Under the pieces are notes generated by a model. The model was not told where the DNA came from. It ran no database searches and saw only the letters and a list, made by a program, of their open reading frames with translations. DNA of 64,000 bases, taken from Serratia liquefaciens. Lineage in GTDB: Bacteria > Pseudomonadota > Gammaproteobacteria > Enterobacterales > Enterobacteriaceae. Made by a program: the position numbers and the translations under genes. Shown one piece after another: positions 5,786 through 29,978 of the stretch (within the stretch, counting starts at the first letter, position 1; every line of letters begins with the position of its first letter). The stretch lies in the NCBI RefSeq assembly GCF_027594825.1, contig NZ_CP088930.1:1921019-1985018 (forward strand), read 5' to 3'.

Positions 5786-6730
5786 TCAGCCGGCGGTAAA
5801 CCCTTCGGCAAAGGCGCCACGCAAATAACGGCTGAACTCCGTCACTGCTCGCGATACCTGGGGCGCATAGGGGCGCACCACATAAAGACTGTCGGCAAAA
5901 GCGCCTATCGGCCGCCAGGCCGGCAGTACCTCAATCAATCGACCGTCCGCCAACGCCTGCTGCGCACTGAAGTCCGGCAGCAAGGCAATACCCAACCCTT
6001 CTGCCGCCGCATCGCGTATCGATTCGCTGTTATTGGTGGCAAAAGGGCCGCTGACCGGCACGCGGATCTTTTCTGCCTTGCCCTGCTGCGCATGTTTAGC
6101 CACGAAACTCCAGCCCGGTTGTTCGGTGCCGCGGGGGTAGTAAAGGCACTGATGCCGTTGCAGATCCGCCGGTGACGTCGGCATACCGTGGCGTGTTACG
6201 TAGTCTGCCGACGCCACCGTCAGGGTTTCGGTTGAGCACAACCGCCAGGCGACATGGGTGTCGGGCAGGCTGTCACTGTGACGGATCGCCAAATCAAAAC
6301 CCTCGGTAGCCAGGGATACCAGCCGATCCGAAACCTCAAGCTGCACCCGCACCTCAGGATTAGCGCGGAGAAAGCCGGTAATGCGCGGCACCAGTTGCTG
6401 GCGGGCAAAAGCCACCGGCGCCGTGACCCGCACCGAACCGCGCAGCGGCCCGGCAGAATCGCAAATGCCGGAAAAGCTCTGCTTAATCTGCTCGAAAGGC
6501 TGGCGCAGCTCCTCGACCAGCCTCGATCCGGCCTCGGTCAGCCTGACGCTGCGGGTGGTCCTCTGCACCAACGGTACCCCGGCCAGCATTTCAATCTCTT
6601 TGATTTTTTGGCTCATGGCCGCTTTGCTGACATCCAACCGCTCCGCCGCCCGGGTATAACTGCCCTGCTCGGCCAACACGGTAAGCCAATGCAAATGGGT
6701 CCACAGAGTTTCTATTTTGGGATTTTTCAT
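5786..6730 (-). CDS. LysR-family regulator divergent from a tautomerase gene
   Basis: A 314-residue LysR protein with the HTH at about residues 12-70 (WLTVLAEQGSYTRAAERLDVS, then KAAMSQKIKEIEMLAG) and an effector-binding domain from about residue 95 (GSVRVTAPVAFARQQLVPRI). It is transcribed away from the tautomerase gene at 6879 across a 148-base gap. This is the classical LysR/target arrangement, so control of that gene is likely but inferred. Its ATG at 6730 gives normal family length. Confidence 0.88.
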   Translation of the reverse strand: MKNPKIETLWTHLHWLTVLAEQGSYTRAAERLDVSKAAMSQKIKEIEMLAGVPLVQRTTRSVRLTEAGSRLVEELRQPFEQIKQSFSGICDSAGPLRGSVRVTAPVAFARQQLVPRITGFLRANPEVRVQLEVSDRLVSLATEGFDLAIRHSDSLPDTHVAWRLCSTETLTVASADYVTRHGMPTSPADLQRHQCLYYPRGTEQPGWSFVAKHAQQGKAEKIRVPVSGPFATNNSESIRDAAAEGLGIALLPDFSAQQALADGRLIEVLPAWRPIGAFADSLYVVRPYAPQVSRAVTEFSRYLRGAFAEGFTAG

Positions 6731-24332: not shown

Positions 24333-24927
24333 TTTTCGACAATAGCGCCACCTAGGGGGAATCACTCCAGCAGCTCCAACGAGAGGTGTGATTCACTTGT
24401 TTGACGGGGGCAACACGGGTGGCGATCTCCGGCATAGCAGCTTCAGTTCTAATACACGATCGGAATTATTCCTGTGTAACTCCAAAGGAATACCCTCCCG
24501 AATTGTACAAGCTGACTGAACTCAGGTATGCCATTGATAATGCAAGGTTACATGGCCTAACCTAAGGAAATTAAATATTACCATAACAAATAATAATTAC
24601 CTGAGTGAGTAAAAACAAAGTACAAACAAATAAAAAATAAACAATCAATGTTTTAATTTTAAATTAACACAATAAAAAACCATCTTTGTAATACAACAAG
24701 TCAACTTACGAGAATGAGCACCAATAATCATAACGTATGAAGTTTAAAATTCTGTTTTATTGATTTAGCTCAAAATTATATCCATATCTAACATGATTAA
24801 CGATATGATCATCCAACAAAAGCATGGATCAAGCTTATCATTCATACCAATATTCAATCGATTTAATCGATGATAGTCCAGCGTAAATATTGGAATCTGA
24901 GTATCTTTTTAAGGGAAGGAACCACTT
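24333..24927. other. 595-base AT-rich non-coding region
   Basis: No gene is supported. Just after the dehydrogenase the arms GAATCAC (24359-24365) and GTGATTC (24388-24394) could form a loose hairpin. Upstream of the LuxR-type gene ATCGAT-TTA-ATCGAT at 24857-24871 is a perfect inverted repeat, a possible operator. The remainder is long runs of A and T, typical of horizontally acquired, H-NS-bound DNA. Confidence 0.45.
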
Positions 24928-25557
24928 ATGCTCAAAGAATCAATAACCGTATTTTTATCGGATAAAAATCGCTACTTCATGCATGGCATCCAGCAGGCAC
25001 TGGAGATCTACTTCCACTCAAAAAATGTGAATGTGCGCTTCACCGAAAACACCTTCGAATACCGGACGGCCGACATCATCTTTCTGGCAGCCAATCCAAG
25101 CGAAAGCACCCTGCCTCATTATCTGTATTCGCAAGCGAAGGCGTGCTGCCCATTGGTTTTCTTGATTGAGGAAGAACGAGGTTCAACGCCGGTTGCCAAC
25201 AGCGCCAGCCGAAAGAAATTCACTTATATCTCGCGCAATAAAAGTGTCGAGGCTCTATTTGAAACCGTTGAGCGCGTTGTTTTCTCCAAAATTATTAAAA
25301 ATAAAAGAAATCGCTGTGATTTTAATAACGCATCCCGATTCGCCAGGTTCTCTACCAGAGAGTATGAAGTCATTCATTATCTTTCTTTAGGCCTGCCCAA
25401 CATTTCGATTTCACGAAAACTGAATCTCAGTGAAAAGACCATCAGCCAGCATAAACGTAACGCAATGCGAAAGCTGAATTTCAAACGCAATGCCGAACTG
25501 CATTTTTGGTTGTTGTGTGGCGGTTTAAAGGACGTTGGACGACATGTTCTGATGTAA
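24928..25557 (+). CDS. LuxR-type regulator with a pseudo-receiver domain
   Basis: A 209-residue protein. The C-terminal LuxR HTH is clear at about 140-200 (FSTREYEVIHYLSLGLP, then LNLSEKTISQHKRNAMRKL). The N-terminal half has a receiver-like pattern but lacks the phospho-acceptor Asp: the expected strand reads ADIIFLAANPSES. It is therefore probably not controlled by phosphorylation, resembling RcsA-like or fimbrial LuxR regulators. AAGGAA precedes the ATG at normal spacing. Its target is unknown; the membrane-anchored protein gene 190 bases downstream is one candidate. Confidence 0.82.
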   Translation: MLKESITVFLSDKNRYFMHGIQQALEIYFHSKNVNVRFTENTFEYRTADIIFLAANPSESTLPHYLYSQAKACCPLVFLIEEERGSTPVANSASRKKFTYISRNKSVEALFETVERVVFSKIIKNKRNRCDFNNASRFARFSTREYEVIHYLSLGLPNISISRKLNLSEKTISQHKRNAMRKLNFKRNAELHFWLLCGGLKDVGRHVLM

Positions 25558-25746
25558 CCCTCTCACAGGGAAATTCATCCTTATTTTCAAGCGTCTTTTC
25601 TTCAAAAGCAGACTAACGATGGAAATAAATGCGTTTTTCTCTATTCGGTTTACAGCGTGCCTTATCAGGATTGTCGATTGCCCGACCAACAATAAATTAC
25701 GGGTAATCGATAACTCAGCAACTGCGCACCGAAAGGAAACCGCAAA

Positions 25747-26226
25747 ATGATACTAAACCGCGCAACCCTGCTTGGTTTACTCAGCATGCTGCTATTGCTA
25801 CTGGCGCTGCTGCCATCACTTTTGAGGATGATCGACATTTCCAATATCCCTGCTATTTTGCACTCCATGCAAGATGGCAAACTGTCGCCTAATAACCCTC
25901 ATAGCGGGGATACAAATGAACCGACCAGCGGAAAACATCAAGAGCCCTTAACCGACGAGGGTAACCTAACACAGCATGCCGAGGTCAAAATCAAGCGGGG
26001 AGATACCGGAGTCAGGCCAGTGTCCAAGCTACGCATAAAATCGCTTACGCAAGGGAGCAAAATCCCAAGGATGAATCTGGCAGATTTGCAAAAAAGCGAT
26101 TCTGACTTACCGACTGAAAGCGCCTTGGCCAAATTCAATTTTCAAACTCTCCAGCAGGAAGTAAAAAAATTTATCCGCAGAAAGATATTGTCACGCAGAA
26201 AGCTAGCGGGTTCGAATTTAGAGTAA
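25747..26226 (+). CDS. Membrane-anchored protein of unknown function
   Basis: A 159-residue protein that I do not recognise. It has one N-terminal hydrophobic segment at about 8-28 (LLGLLSMLLLLLALLPSLL) and a polar, low-complexity remainder rich in Lys, Ser and Asp, ending in a basic tail (FIRRKILSRRKL). AAAGGA precedes the ATG. It lies between the LuxR-type regulator and the left end of the integrative element; the stop is 24 bases before the duplicated tRNA end. It is thus the chromosomal gene that originally followed the tRNA-Gly, or part of an older insertion. Confidence 0.55.
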   Translation: MILNRATLLGLLSMLLLLLALLPSLLRMIDISNIPAILHSMQDGKLSPNNPHSGDTNEPTSGKHQEPLTDEGNLTQHAEVKIKRGDTGVRPVSKLRIKSLTQGSKIPRMNLADLQKSDSDLPTESALAKFNFQTLQQEVKKFIRRKILSRRKLAGSNLE

Positions 26227-26249
26227 ATGAAGATGCTGCCAGAAGGGTG

Positions 26250-26274
26250 TTTGGAGCGGTGAAGGGAATCGAAC
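26250..26274. repeat. Left attachment site (duplicated tRNA-Gly 3' end)
   Basis: These 25 bases match 29903-29928 except for one G missing from the GCGGG run. They correspond to part of the T arm, the acceptor stem and the CCA end of tRNA-Gly, with no further tRNA sequence beyond them. Identity stops abruptly on the inner side, as expected for a site-specific recombination core. Confidence 0.88.
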
Positions 26275-26307
26275 ATAGGTACTTTCCGAACTGCCGGTAA
26301 GTGCCTA

Positions 26308-26350
26308 ATCCCATTGCTGATGCGGTGAATACTACATCAGAGAATGGGAT
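26308..26350 (+). promoter_or_regulatory. Long hairpin directly before the integrase start
   Basis: ATCCCATT (26308-26315) pairs with AATGGGAT (26343-26350), and TGATG (26318-26322) with CATCA (26335-26339), around a 12-base loop. The right arm ends 6 bases before the integrase ATG and covers the only purine-rich stretch available as a ribosome-binding site. It could limit integrase translation, or be a recombinase or excisionase arm site. Confidence 0.5.
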
Positions 26351-26356
26351 AACGCT

Positions 26357-27550
26357 ATGGGTAACAGTGCGAGAAATCAGTACCTGTACAGACACGAATC
26401 CGGTATTTGGATGTTTCAAATAGCAGTGCCTCAGCATATGCGACATTTAACAAATGGCCGGAGGCTGTTCAGGAAAAGCACTGGTCAACGTGACGTCCAG
26501 AAAGCCCGAACAGTGCGCGACCGATTAGTTGTTGAATGGAACCACGTAAAAGAAAAACACGCTGTTGATACCGAAACTATTACGTTAAATCGCGCCATCA
26601 ACGCGGTACAGCAACTAGGACAAGTATCGGCAGTGACTTCCGGTGACCGGGTAATGCTTCAAGCCGTTACTTCCGAATACCTAGCTGAATACAAAAAAAC
26701 ACGCAGCCTCAGCACCATCAGTAAACACACTCTAGCGGTACGGCTCCTGCTCGAACATTTAACCGTTGCTGATACCGAGATAACCGGCATCACCCGCACA
26801 TCGGTGACGCAGTTCATCCGTGCTCTAAAACCCAAGAAATCCGCCCAGACAATCCAGAACTACCTGTCCGGCCTGAACTCGGTGTACGAGTACGCCCGCC
26901 GCTGTTATGACGGAATCCCCGCCGCGTCACCATTCATAGGGCACCGACTTGAGGCGAAGCGGACTGTTAGCAGTTACCAGCCGTTCACGCAGGCAGAGAT
27001 TACAACCCTTCTCGGTAATGCCGAGGAAAAACTTCACGACGTTATTTTTATTGGCCTGTACTCAGGAATGCGTCTGAATGAAATTGCCTCTCTCGGTGTT
27101 GATGACGTGCCGGAAATCAACGGTGTGCAGTGCTTCCGTATTCAGGCAGCCAAAACAAAAGCAGGCGTTCGATTGGTGCCTATTCACTCTGCTTTGGTAG
27201 ACATCATCCAGAAGTACAAACGTTTGAATGCTCAGGGGCAGCACGGGCGGTACTTGCTGCCTAAAGCAAACGCCATCAAGAGAGCAGATGCCAAGCGTGG
27301 ACCGTGGTTCAGTCAGCAATTTACCCGCCTACGGAATAAGGTGCTGCCGAACGCTACAGATCGGCAGTGCTTCCACAGCCTACGGGGAATGTTTATCACC
27401 AGTTTGGACAGGCACAACATAGACGACAGCAGGATAGCCGCGCTTGTAGGCCACACACAGAAGACAATGGCGAAACAGGTTTATAGTCAAGGAGTTGAAC
27501 TTGAAGAGTTAAGTAAGATCATAGAGTTAGTGAATTATCAGGGCTTGTAG
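26357..27550 (+). CDS. Tyrosine recombinase (integrase)
   Basis: A 397-residue site-specific integrase. The N-terminal part (1-110) resembles the DUF6538-type arm-binding region (RHESGIWMFQIAVPQHMRH), followed by a SAM-like core-binding domain at about 110-200 and a catalytic domain. The catalytic set is complete: Arg239 (SGMRLNE), His340 and Arg343 (HSLRG), His366 (VGHTQ) and nucleophile Tyr376 (VYSQG). It should integrate and excise the element at tRNA-Gly. No adjacent excisionase gene is recognisable. A strong hairpin lies just before its ATG. Confidence 0.93.
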   Translation: MGNSARNQYLYRHESGIWMFQIAVPQHMRHLTNGRRLFRKSTGQRDVQKARTVRDRLVVEWNHVKEKHAVDTETITLNRAINAVQQLGQVSAVTSGDRVMLQAVTSEYLAEYKKTRSLSTISKHTLAVRLLLEHLTVADTEITGITRTSVTQFIRALKPKKSAQTIQNYLSGLNSVYEYARRCYDGIPAASPFIGHRLEAKRTVSSYQPFTQAEITTLLGNAEEKLHDVIFIGLYSGMRLNEIASLGVDDVPEINGVQCFRIQAAKTKAGVRLVPIHSALVDIIQKYKRLNAQGQHGRYLLPKANAIKRADAKRGPWFSQQFTRLRNKVLPNATDRQCFHSLRGMFITSLDRHNIDDSRIAALVGHTQKTMAKQVYSQGVELEELSKIIELVNYQGL

Positions 27551-27715
27551 TTCAGCATTCAGTAATGCACTGAAAATCTTACATAGCTTTACCCACATTC
27601 TTCTTGATCTTATTGCTGGGTAGATATACAGTTAACACAACATGTAGTGTTAGTATTTAAATAAATGCACTACATGCAAGTGATTCGTACCCTAAACAAC
27701 GATAAGGTCATAGAA

Positions 27716-27961
27716 ATGGCAAATAGCAAACAAACCTCTAAATCAGTAGCCTCAACGGCTGCGCAAACACTGAACAACCCTAACGCTTCAGCAATTCAAA
27801 AAAGCTTGGCTGGTTCGGCCTTGGCTCAATCAGGTACAAGCAAACAGACTGGCGCTTCAATGGAATCAAAGGCTTCAGCAGCTTTAGATAATCCTCGTTC
27901 CGCAGCTCTTACACGTACCCTTGCCGGAACTGTTGTTTCACAGTCAGACAAGAAACGCTAA
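27716..27961 (+). CDS. Small alanine/serine-rich protein with two-fold internal repeat
   Basis: An 81-residue polar protein starting MANSKQTSKSVASTAAQTL. It contains two copies of a pattern A-x-x-x-L-x-NP-x-(A)S-A-x(4)-SLAGS-x-x-x-QS, at about residues 12-44 and 52-80 (NNPNASAIQKSLAGSALAQS, then DNPRSAALTRTLAGTVVSQS). No membrane segment or catalytic motif is visible. AAGG lies 8 bases before the ATG; an upstream in-frame ATG at 27665 is less likely. A textbook terminator follows the stop. I have seen similar small proteins in enterobacterial elements but cannot assign a function. Confidence 0.72.
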   Translation: MANSKQTSKSVASTAAQTLNNPNASAIQKSLAGSALAQSGTSKQTGASMESKASAALDNPRSAALTRTLAGTVVSQSDKKR

Positions 27962-27975
27962 GTAATACATACTCT

Positions 27976-28000
27976 AAGGGCGGCTTTCGTCGCCCTTTCC
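27976..28000 (+). terminator. Intrinsic terminator after the repeat-protein gene
   Basis: AAGGGCGGC and GTCGCCCTT pair over 9 bp (one G-T) around a TTTC loop, starting 15 bases after the stop. The tail is TTTCC, short but plausible. Confidence 0.7.
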
Positions 28001-28334
28001 CTGCCTCTATGCCTGATACCCCTCGCCCAACACATTAAGCGGCGCTCCTAATCATACCTGACAAACCAGTCACCTCAGCACGACTAACATCACCAACTGA
28101 TCGGTTGTTGGTACTGGTTATACAATCAGAGAGGGTATGCTCAGATTTGAGCAGTCATACACAGCAGTTCGGCGGGTTCACCCTGCACGATACTCTGCGT
28201 CTCGCTGAGAACCTCTCAAAGTAGAATCAGGCGCTGGTATTGAAGGGAGAGTGATACCCCTCCCTTTATCTTCACGTATGTCGAAAGGGGTATGGGGGAC
28301 AATGAGGGCTGTCAGGGTGCAGGGAGGCTCTCTC
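28001..28334. other. Non-coding stretch of the element with short inverted repeats
   Basis: No gene is supported. Small inverted repeats occur: ACCAAC/GTTGGT around 28091-28112 and a nested GTATG, TGCTCA / TGAGCA, CATAC structure at 28135-28160. They could be recombinase or excisionase accessory sites, or RNA structure. I cannot choose between these. Confidence 0.35.
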
Positions 28335-28496
28335 ATGAGCACAACAAAAATTGACCGCAGTACACATCGGTACTGGAAATTAACTGCTGAAATAATGTTC
28401 GCAGTGTGCATCGTTATTACAATGCTATTCAAAATAGATTATTTATTTGTGCATGCCTTCGCAAATTGTTTCCCTAGGGTTGTTATATGTAGGTAG
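28335..28496 (+). CDS. Short putative membrane protein, 53 residues
   Basis: The frame starts MSTTKIDRSTHRYWKLTAEI with a hydrophobic stretch at about 18-35 (IMFAVCIVITMLF), and has GGAGG 7 bases before the ATG. Its last 58 bases overlap the 3' end of the DUF4393 gene on the other strand, and the C-terminus looks arbitrary. It may be a truncated remnant of a larger gene lost when the element was assembled. The good ribosome-binding site is the main argument for calling it. Confidence 0.35.
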   Translation: MSTTKIDRSTHRYWKLTAEIMFAVCIVITMLFKIDYLFVHAFANCFPRVVICR

Positions 28497-29272
28497 GATT
28501 TATCATACTTAAACTTAAGACCTCTGCTTTCTATTTCTTTCTTGAAACCATTGAGAAAATCAGATGACAATAAGTCATTGTAGTGTTCTTCAATAACATA
28601 GTATTGCCCATTAGGAATCTCACACAATCCTAATCGGCATAAATTATTTAAGTATGCGGGGGTTAGGTGAGGGTTATCGCAACCAGCCTTTATTCCTATA
28701 TGAGAGTAATTCTCATAGACATTGTTCGTACCCGCAGACTTACCATTCCCTTCTGATTGCATAGTAACTATCGGAAAAACAACTCCTGAGTCAAGAAATA
28801 AATTTATTATTTTTGCTTCATCAGGCGTTAATTGTTTAATTATTTCCACAAAAGCCGGGTGAGCATTCTCTATCGTATCTTTATTCATTGCTGTGGCCAA
28901 TAAATTGGCATACATTTCGCTTAATGATTCTTCATGTCCTGTATAGCGTAACGCTTCAATAGCAGGGCCTGCAACATTAGGCTTTGGTGTGATAATGTTT
29001 TCTGGTGGAACATTTTCTAGTTTTCTGGCAACTTTGGTGGCGGTAAACTCTTTTATTTGGTCATAGCCCCATACCAAAGCACTAACTGGAGCCAATGCAA
29101 CGTTTACTAATTTTGCAACGGTACCTAAAGCCTTACCCACCTCTTGTGCCGCAGGCTGTATAGCATCTTGGTAGATTGGTACCTCTTTGGTGACCGCTGC
29201 CACAGCATGAACAATATCAGTGACTTGACTGGTTTTTGTTTGCGAGTTCTCTTCAGACATAAAACTACCCAT
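28439..29272 (-). CDS. DUF4393 (Abi-alpha-like) protein, possible abortive-infection factor
   Basis: A 277-residue protein (273 if the second Met at 29260 is used) of the DUF4393 family as I recognise it: an N-terminal Ala/Val-rich helical region at about 15-85 (LGTVAKLVNVALAPVSALVWGYDQIKEF), then EALRYTGHEESLSEMYANLLATAMN and QLTPDEAKIINLFL, ending in a mixed alpha/beta part. The family is also listed as Abi_alpha because a member was linked to abortive phage infection; the mechanism is unknown. It is the only sizeable cargo of the tRNA-Gly element, on the strand opposite to the integrase. The hydrophobic N-terminal patch suggests membrane association. The defence role is inference. Confidence 0.72.
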   Translation of the reverse strand: MGSFMSEENSQTKTSQVTDIVHAVAAVTKEVPIYQDAIQPAAQEVGKALGTVAKLVNVALAPVSALVWGYDQIKEFTATKVARKLENVPPENIITPKPNVAGPAIEALRYTGHEESLSEMYANLLATAMNKDTIENAHPAFVEIIKQLTPDEAKIINLFLDSGVVFPIVTMQSEGNGKSAGTNNVYENYSHIGIKAGCDNPHLTPAYLNNLCRLGLCEIPNGQYYVIEEHYNDLLSSDFLNGFKKEIESRGLKFKYDKSYLHITTLGKQFAKACTNK

Positions 29273-29902
29273 CGTATATTTATCTTCGACATTACCTTAT
29301 ATCCTTTTGAGTTATTTAAATCAATAGATTCATATTAGATAGTAGTATTTATGAAGAGTCGATACTCGTTGGTATATATAATAGAAATTCTTGATTGAAC
29401 TGGTGAATGCATGTGGGTGATATTATTTTCAATAACTACGCCAGTTGATGGTTGAATTTGAATAATACCGGCCATAAAGCCCCGGTTAGTGATACCTAAG
29501 CAGCGGAGCGTCAGCGACATCATCAGATTATCATAGCGCATCATCGTTATCAGGTCGCCCGTGCATCCTAAGGAACCGTGGGCCAGCCGGAGATAGAGCC
29601 GGGTCTTTCGCTACCGGTGCGTATCACTTTAGCCTGTTTATCCCTGTAAAGGGGCATCGGGGCTGAATGCTGCGATGAACTATGTTTTGGGAGAGTTTAG
29701 AGCCGATGGCACGGCATGCTGTTCTTGTTAAGCTATCGCGGTAAGACAGTAGAACGACCGCAAGCGGTTTGATATGCTCCCAGAACCATACACCACGCTA
29801 CAACAGCGATGGGCAATTCCTAGAGATACCTTTGTCGGAACCTGGACATTCAATCACTTCTGAATTTTATGATTTCTAACGAGAAGGTACAAAAAGAAAG
29901 GC
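29273..29902. other. Right end of the element, 630 bases without a firm gene
   Basis: A 69-codon minus-strand frame at 29335-29544 (MMRYDNLMMSLTLRCLGITN...) has prophage-like flavour but no clear ribosome-binding site, so it is not called. From about 29500 the base composition becomes more GC-rich than in the DUF4393 gene, suggesting a mosaic. No repeats or RNA genes are recognised before the attachment site. Confidence 0.4.
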
Positions 29903-29928
29903 TTTGGAGCGGGTGAAGGGAATCGAAC
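29903..29928. repeat. Right attachment site inside tRNA-Gly
   Basis: These 26 bases include the 3' end of the intact tRNA-Gly gene (acceptor stem, part of the T arm, encoded CCA) plus two flanking T residues. They are the partner of the copy at 26250-26274. Confidence 0.88.
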
Positions 29929-29978
29929 CCTCGTATGCAGCTTGGGAAGCTGCCGTTCTACCATTGAACTACACCCGC
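29905..29978 (-). tRNA. glyU: tRNA-Gly, anticodon CCC
   Basis: The 74-base gene folds as a complete cloverleaf. The acceptor stem pairs GCGGGTG with CACCCGC, the D arm holds GTTCAATGGTAGAAC, the anticodon loop reads TTCCCAA (anticodon CCC), the T arm holds GGGTTCGATTCCC, and CCA is encoded. It closely resembles E. coli glyU. It stands upstream of nothing on its own strand except the integrative element, and is just beyond the lysS terminator. Its 3' end is the integration target of the element. Confidence 0.95.

Follow-up and report, generated by a model that had tools for sequence, protein, structure and literature searches.

A small tRNA-Gly(CCC) element of Serratia liquefaciens with Abi_alpha cargo and its likely kinship to capsid-encoding satellite-like elements

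Integrase-only defence islands of Escherichia coli consist of an integrase and a defence gene at a tRNA site and carry no known transfer genes, and the authors of their description suggest that they are uncharacterised satellites (PMC10121019). Many defence genes are located in islands of this kind, and how these islands move is given as an open question in two reports (PMC10121019, PMC11389934). Here we describe an island of the same composition in Serratia liquefaciens, located in a 64,000-nt stretch of contig NZ_CP088930.1 (positions 1,921,019 to 1,985,018), which is called the window throughout and originates from a genome consisting of a single contig of 5.35 Mb (G000). It differs from the E. 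coli islands in being tied by its integrase type and by a conserved block at its end to capsid-encoding relatives. On balance we favour the explanation that it is a minimal integrative element of ~3.65 kb at tRNA-Gly(CCC) with an Abi_alpha gene as cargo, a capsid-less kin of satellite-like elements which is probably moved by a phage or by a larger relative.

Capsid-forming phage-inducible chromosomal islands (cf-PICIs) are satellite-like and possess capsid proteins, as only the larger relatives of the window element do. The cf-PICIs also encode terminase and portal, whereas in one of these relatives, E. coli 90-1, only proteins like E and D of phage lambda were recognised. The phage-inducible chromosomal minimalist islands (PICMIs) of Vibrionaceae are likewise very small and satellite-like with defence cargo, but they have int, AlpA and a primase and are located at fis (PMC10803314). 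The window element lies at tRNA-Gly and shows neither AlpA nor primase among its scanned open reading frames (ORFs), and was therefore not assigned to the PICMIs. A tyrosine integrase, direct repeats, defence cargo and a lack of autonomous transfer genes are also described for the Pseudomonas tmRNA islands I23, I44 and I55, which are moved by a jumbo phage; they are far larger (smallest <20 kb, largest >70 kb), inserted at tmRNA and equipped with AlpA (PMC12595487), and the window element shares none of these features.

The insertion at tRNA-Gly(CCC)

The target gene is an intact tRNA-Gly(CCC) on the minus strand (29905..29978), which contains the proximal attachment (att) copy at 29905..29928. 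The distal copy at 26250..26274 corresponds to the tRNA 3' end minus one G: all of its 25 bases match the 26-mer at 29903-29928, and only its GGG run is one G short. A repeat of this length is above chance, as the best matches in 20 shuffles of the window (in 1-kb blocks) comprised 16-20 bases, and an exact 24-nt copy is found at the same place in another genome of the genus (G008). Enclosed between the two copies are an intact tyrosine recombinase (integrase) of 397 aa (26357..27550, plus strand), a small repeat protein of 81 aa if read from its second ATG (27716..27961, plus strand; ORF start at 27665), which matches phrog_5079 in two stretches, and the gene of an Abi_alpha/DUF4393 protein, a candidate abortive-infection protein (28439..29272, minus strand). 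Towards the tRNA these genes are followed by a conserved structured non-coding block (29472..29690; no strand assigned, its covariance model R1 being written on the plus strand) and a spacer of 214 nt (29691..29904). No replication, transfer or capsid family from Pfam, PADLOC, PHROGs or NCBIfam was matched by the scanned ORFs of the element, from which a lambda-E-like capsid gene is likewise absent. The initial annotation had named the duplicated tRNA end, the three enclosed genes and the lack of replication and transfer genes, and it was right in all three points.

The site was compared in a genus sample of 30 genomes including G000, all of which contain the tRNA-lysS region, and 20 tRNA-site regions from 19 of the other genomes were inspected, with a desulfurase gene present in 12/20. 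Empty sites, for which a search across related Serratia had been proposed, exist in two of the 19 genomes (G011 and G025): here the desulfurase gene ends ~100 bp or less from the tRNA with nothing recognisable between them. Within the same species no empty site was seen among the inspected genomes. G008 also has this desulfurase, and next to it come the exact att copy and the first 534 bp of the element (95% identity) with a broken integrase; further on, cargo of another kind precedes the right end shared with the window element and the tRNA. G060, which belongs to the same species, shares the left flank with 94% identity over 24740 to 26275, that is up to the att copy, with an insertion of ~6 kb further left in the flank, and homology on the tRNA side starts at 29903. 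Its tRNA site is occupied by other sequence, in which a different integrase (396 aa) adjoins the tRNA (L074:10934 onwards and L075:1-10932), the two sides being located on separate contigs so that continuity across the site is not established. Because G011 and G025 have empty sites and G060 has another occupant beyond the common left flank, the stretch between the att copies is, by comparison of these loci, an insertion, and the tRNA-Gly site is a variable integration site with the window element as one occupant. The proposal of an integrative element at tRNA-Gly is thus supported by the att repeat, the intact integrase, the empty sites and the different occupant in G060.

Two side observations concern this region. 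In G015 and G026 runs of a 5-base repeat (TTTGG, TTGGA) stand directly before the tRNA 3' end (tRNA at 13206 of L090 and at 13589 of L091). Within the window element a small plus-strand ORF at 28251-28496, which has no family match in Pfam, PADLOC, PHROGs or NCBIfam, overlaps the 3' end of the Abi_alpha gene and may be a truncated gene at a cargo junction, and the non-coding part at 27962-28340 gave nothing beyond chance-level matches in the loci compared.

The integrase family and its capsid-encoding members

The integrase consists of DUF6538, SAM-like and Phage_integrase domains (Pfam; PF00589, PF02899, PF20172), and its closest named homologues are from Serratia (Serratia sp. BIGb0163 with 92% and S. 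ficaria with 87% identity). It has retained R239, K266/K268, H340, R343, H366 and Y376, which we take to be the catalytic residues and which are invariant or nearly so across 22 aligned relatives. We searched upstream of the integrase for the att core in 18 chosen relatives including G008 and found a copy of the tRNA-Gly(CCC) end (≤2 mismatches of 24) 77-113 bp before the integrase match in 14 of them, among these all ten relatives which possess the N-terminus and show 45-48% identity (L110 in pieces). The remaining four are L111, whose integrase lacks the N-terminus, and three relatives of 35-36% identity (L114-L116), two of them having a different, tRNA-like sequence at this position. No tRNA gene was found at the integrase-side att copy in L103-L110, L112 and L113, and in E. 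coli 90-1, LR-29-1, Eco_24-2013 and G3X16-2 the tRNA is located at the end opposite the integrase. Since the end copy precedes the integrase in 14/18 relatives and the tRNA stands at the other end, an integrase far from the tRNA is the usual layout among the sequences of this family, and the view that this placement is less common was not supported. Of the earlier description as a minimal mobile defence island, the integrative tRNA-Gly element and the cargo from the Abi_alpha family remain, without the unusual integrase placement.

The larger relatives 90-1 and LR-29-1 are tRNA-Gly elements of ~13 and ~15 kb, the latter with an insertion sequence (IS) inside. Their integrases of the window type are 46% identical and the adjoining phrog_5079 proteins 75% identical to those of the window element, and a further link is that the 266-aa cargo of G008 shares 41% identity with one gene of a pair close to the tRNA in LR-29-1. 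In 90-1, one protein belongs by its match to a major head family (phrog_29 with E 5.7e-10; PF03864 with E 3.7e-4, which is below its cutoff). The protein next to it resembles the lambda head decoration protein D weakly (PF02924 with E 2.8e-4, again below cutoff), and a further protein shows a weak match to phage replication initiation proteins. The 90-1 capsid protein had no tblastn match at 1e-5 in 50,697 phage records. Lambda-E-like capsid proteins are also present in five of the ten relatives with N-terminus, namely L103 (Kosakonia), L104 (Enterobacter), L105 (Biostraticola) and the viral contigs L112 and L113; none was found in L106-L110, where the sequence of L107-L110 ends within 3 kb of the integrase. 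In E. coli, tRNA-integrated elements carry a lambda-E-like major capsid protein, mostly along with a small D-like neighbour, and their annotation shows no terminase or portal (L099:16190-17569, L100:3599-5006, L101:8801-9832). Taken together, the family shares integrase type and att site, a part of it has the structured end block in common, and its larger members encode capsids and resemble phage satellites in sequence. Within this satellite-like family, the window element appears to be a member that lacks a capsid.

Such an element could also be dead, that is an immobile deletion derivative of a larger capsid-encoding satellite which is kept because Abi_alpha protects the host. The distal att copy with its missing base, the size of relatives such as 90-1 (13-15 kb), the broken integrase of G008 and the lack of an att copy on the left in any remnant element of G028 would fit this idea, but the integrase of the window element is complete and open with its key residues conserved. 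Moreover, neither Abi_alpha nor the repeat protein is matched in any of the 29 further genomes sampled from the genus, which suggests that the element arrived recently or is often lost. We therefore regard a dead remnant as rather unlikely and prefer to see in the window element a probably mobile, capsid-less member of the family.

A conserved structured block at the tRNA end

A blastn search of the element against E. coli returned, besides pieces of the integrase side, a non-coding match at 29464-29795. Aligned copies of the block from Serratia, from E. coli (at tRNA-Gly, -Leu and -Thr), from Enterobacter and from a Klebsiella plasmid show base-pair compensation. The covariance model R1 was built from 11 copies, which are closely related as seen from their effective number of only 1.68, and it gave 26 matches in 52 sources, a number that includes the 11 training copies, two weak matches and three places counted twice owing to two overlapping loci. 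Covariation was tested with 21 distinct sequences against 500 shuffles, using an alignment fitted to the structure, which favours it. Pairing cells amounted to 93.2% (84.7% shuffled), cells with double changes to 74 (25.6 shuffled) and the covariation score to 0.249 (0.125 shuffled), and each of these values was reached by 0/500 shuffles; sliding the partners gave scores of ≤0.061. Pairs with a double change numbered 15 (10.4 shuffled, 1/500), and further pair types were not above the shuffles (463/500 as high). For a helix crossing the main stem an arm-swap test was performed, in which the own arms gave a mean of -14.4 kcal/mol compared to -7.6 for the arms of dissimilar sequences. The observed total was reached by 0/20,000 permutations, with 18 of the 21 sequences used and relatedness uncontrolled, and in single sequences the arm of another sequence often did as well. 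By its alignment the ~220-nt block is a conserved structured non-coding sequence with strong compensatory changes, and it probably contains a pseudoknot.

Several simpler assignments of the block were tried and dropped. In Rfam the window matches only tRNA, and one E. coli copy only tRNA and sub-threshold chance matches. As to a coding sequence, no shared ORF was noticed and the gaps vary freely in length, a formal coding test not having been run. A second block copy at the other end of the element was represented only by chance matches of 11-15 nt in 12 loci, and a known phage packaging site was rejected as the block matches nothing in the 50,697 phage records.

A tRNA lies within 400 nt of the block in 17 of the 25 loci with a block match. 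The distance is 203-239 nt with the same orientation in 16 loci (14 tRNA-Gly, one tRNA-Leu, one tRNA-Thr), which are not all independent as L125, L129, L130 and L139 are near-identical, and in L111 a truncated block copy is found 12 nt from the tRNA. No tRNA is present in the stretch examined in the other eight, which are the plasmid copies L096 and L127, the MS 115-1 island copy L128, and L095, L109, L106, L143 and L144; an IS comes next after the block in L095, and the match in L144 is weak. The near-constant distance might mean that the recombination complex binds the block as DNA, as an attP arm contacted by integrase or accessory proteins, with the pairing reflecting inverted repeats in DNA. 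Against this, the block is common to tRNA-Gly, -Leu and -Thr elements with differing integrases (the tRNA-Leu integrase being 36% identical to that of the window), it is also found on plasmids without tRNA, and long crossing helices such as it has would be unusual for arm sites, so that we consider such a DNA site improbable.

The strand of the block bears on another idea, in which it would form a structured 5' leader with control over the defence gene, its minus-strand transcription perhaps continuing from the tRNA promoter, and would have no role in mobility. In the window, G008, G028, LR-29-1, PM4-5 and ECOD1 the neighbouring cargo gene indeed points away from the block and begins at a distance of ~30-200 nt. 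However, the nearest gene reads towards the block in MS 115-1, pKp5-1, E. coli 3502 and VREC0864, and no gene is annotated between the small recombinase gene and the block in E. coli GE3. Furthermore, folding of the window copy on the minus strand does not surpass that of shuffled sequences (z 0.04), single-sequence folding on the plus strand being unexceptional as well (z -1.31). Covarying consensus folds were obtained on both strands, with double changes in 14/39 and 13/42 pairs, and the block pairs contain 25 GU and 20 AC cells. A leader function appears unlikely to us. We tentatively propose that the block is an undescribed pseudoknotted structured RNA or folded single-stranded DNA serving as a mobility or packaging signal, shared by capsid-encoding satellites at tRNA-Gly, -Leu and -Thr and kept by capsid-less defence elements for their transfer by phages or by their larger relatives, although we hold this specific role to be doubtful.

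In ten loci (L076, L098, L124, L125, L128-L131, L139, L146) a gene for a small recombinase of the serine or tyrosine type is located ~0.5-2 kb inwards of the block, and in most of them cargo separates the two; the window element has no such gene. Examples beside cargo are serine recombinases (Resolvase domain, ~183 aa) or tyrosine recombinases (~186-192 aa) at L076:12342-12896, L125:11201-11752, L098:3519-4079 and L124:11029-11607, and they may possibly represent a module for cargo exchange or inversion. Other block copies follow a relBE toxin-antitoxin pair on two E. coli plasmids (L127:9405-10233, L150:2905-3631), and one is immediately followed by the att copy and integrase of a second element, an arrangement like that of a tandem array (L109:9428-9889).

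Among 5,426 complete E. coli genomes, 808 contain a match to the block query, in many cases a partial one, with 742 of 813 records at 60-80% identity; among the 60 matches listed, 37 cover only 29% of the query. Matches occur in 6/394 genomes of the order sample, one of them weak (G184, 31.5 bits), and a spread beyond Enterobacterales was not found, as only the window's own genome matched among the 369 genomes of the class sample; the stricter filters of both samples lose weak matches. G184, which has 2 Mb and represents a different family of the order, contains the weak R1 matches L144:7783-7967 and 6454-6602 (31.5 and 15 bits).

Candidate defence cargo and proposed mobility

The Abi_alpha protein is covered by PF14337 over residues 70-274 (E 3.8e-62) and matches the PADLOC candidate model PDC-S47 (6.3e-67). 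Searching PDB sequences with it returned the uncharacterised protein 3h35 (E 1.1e-8) and an RNase A match at chance level. Abi-alpha of Enterococcus has been shown to abort phage infection by early lysis (PMC6356687). This protein from E. faecalis prophage 6 belongs to the same Pfam family DUF4393 and has 272 aa compared to 277 aa in the window; it was assayed against phage Idefix in a Gram-positive host (PMC6356687), whereas the window protein is an enterobacterial candidate. The link of DUF4393 to abortive infection made in the initial annotation therefore agrees with the Enterococcus protein and the PADLOC model, and by family membership the window protein would be expected to abort phage infection. 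In a descriptive count without statistical control, 17 cargo-region genes from such loci were run against PADLOC, and five gave clear defence matches: the window Abi_alpha, a G028 gene (PDC-S31), two E. coli genes (PD-T7-4, discovered through functional selection; PMC9519451) and an MS 115-1 gene (PDC-S60), which is positioned beyond the recombinase gene. The other 12 had no clear match, that of G008 being a weak Csn2 match.

From these data a model for the element can be suggested. Its tyrosine recombinase, for which site and family are evident, would insert it at the 3' end of tRNA-Gly(CCC), and the anatomy suggests that the element supplies a copy of the tRNA end so that the tRNA stays intact. 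Abi_alpha would then abort infections by phages. The small member may have lost its capsid genes or never had them, and it would probably move by means of packaging provided by a phage or a larger relative, with the end block acting in cis or as RNA in the packaging cycle. Phage packaging is our best guess for the transfer because the relatives encode capsids, and mobilisation of the window element by a helper phage is indirectly favoured as larger elements with the same integrase type, and partly the same end block, encode lambda-like capsids. Several observations speak against this model. The distal att copy is one base short, which may hamper excision and makes us doubt that the window copy still excises, no helper is known and no Serratia member seen here has capsid genes. 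In addition, the block is without match in the phage records mentioned above, and L104, L105, L112 and L113 gave no R1 match >12 bits, although their examined sequence may stop before the tRNA end.

In the accessible parts of the open-access literature searched we found no published description of the block or of the capsid family. Via integrase, att site and structured block the window element links an integrase-only defence island to capsid-encoding elements, and as the block is found, often partially, in so many E. coli genomes, any function found for it would apply widely. If the block indeed is a shared packaging signal, capsid-less defence elements would be satellites of satellites.

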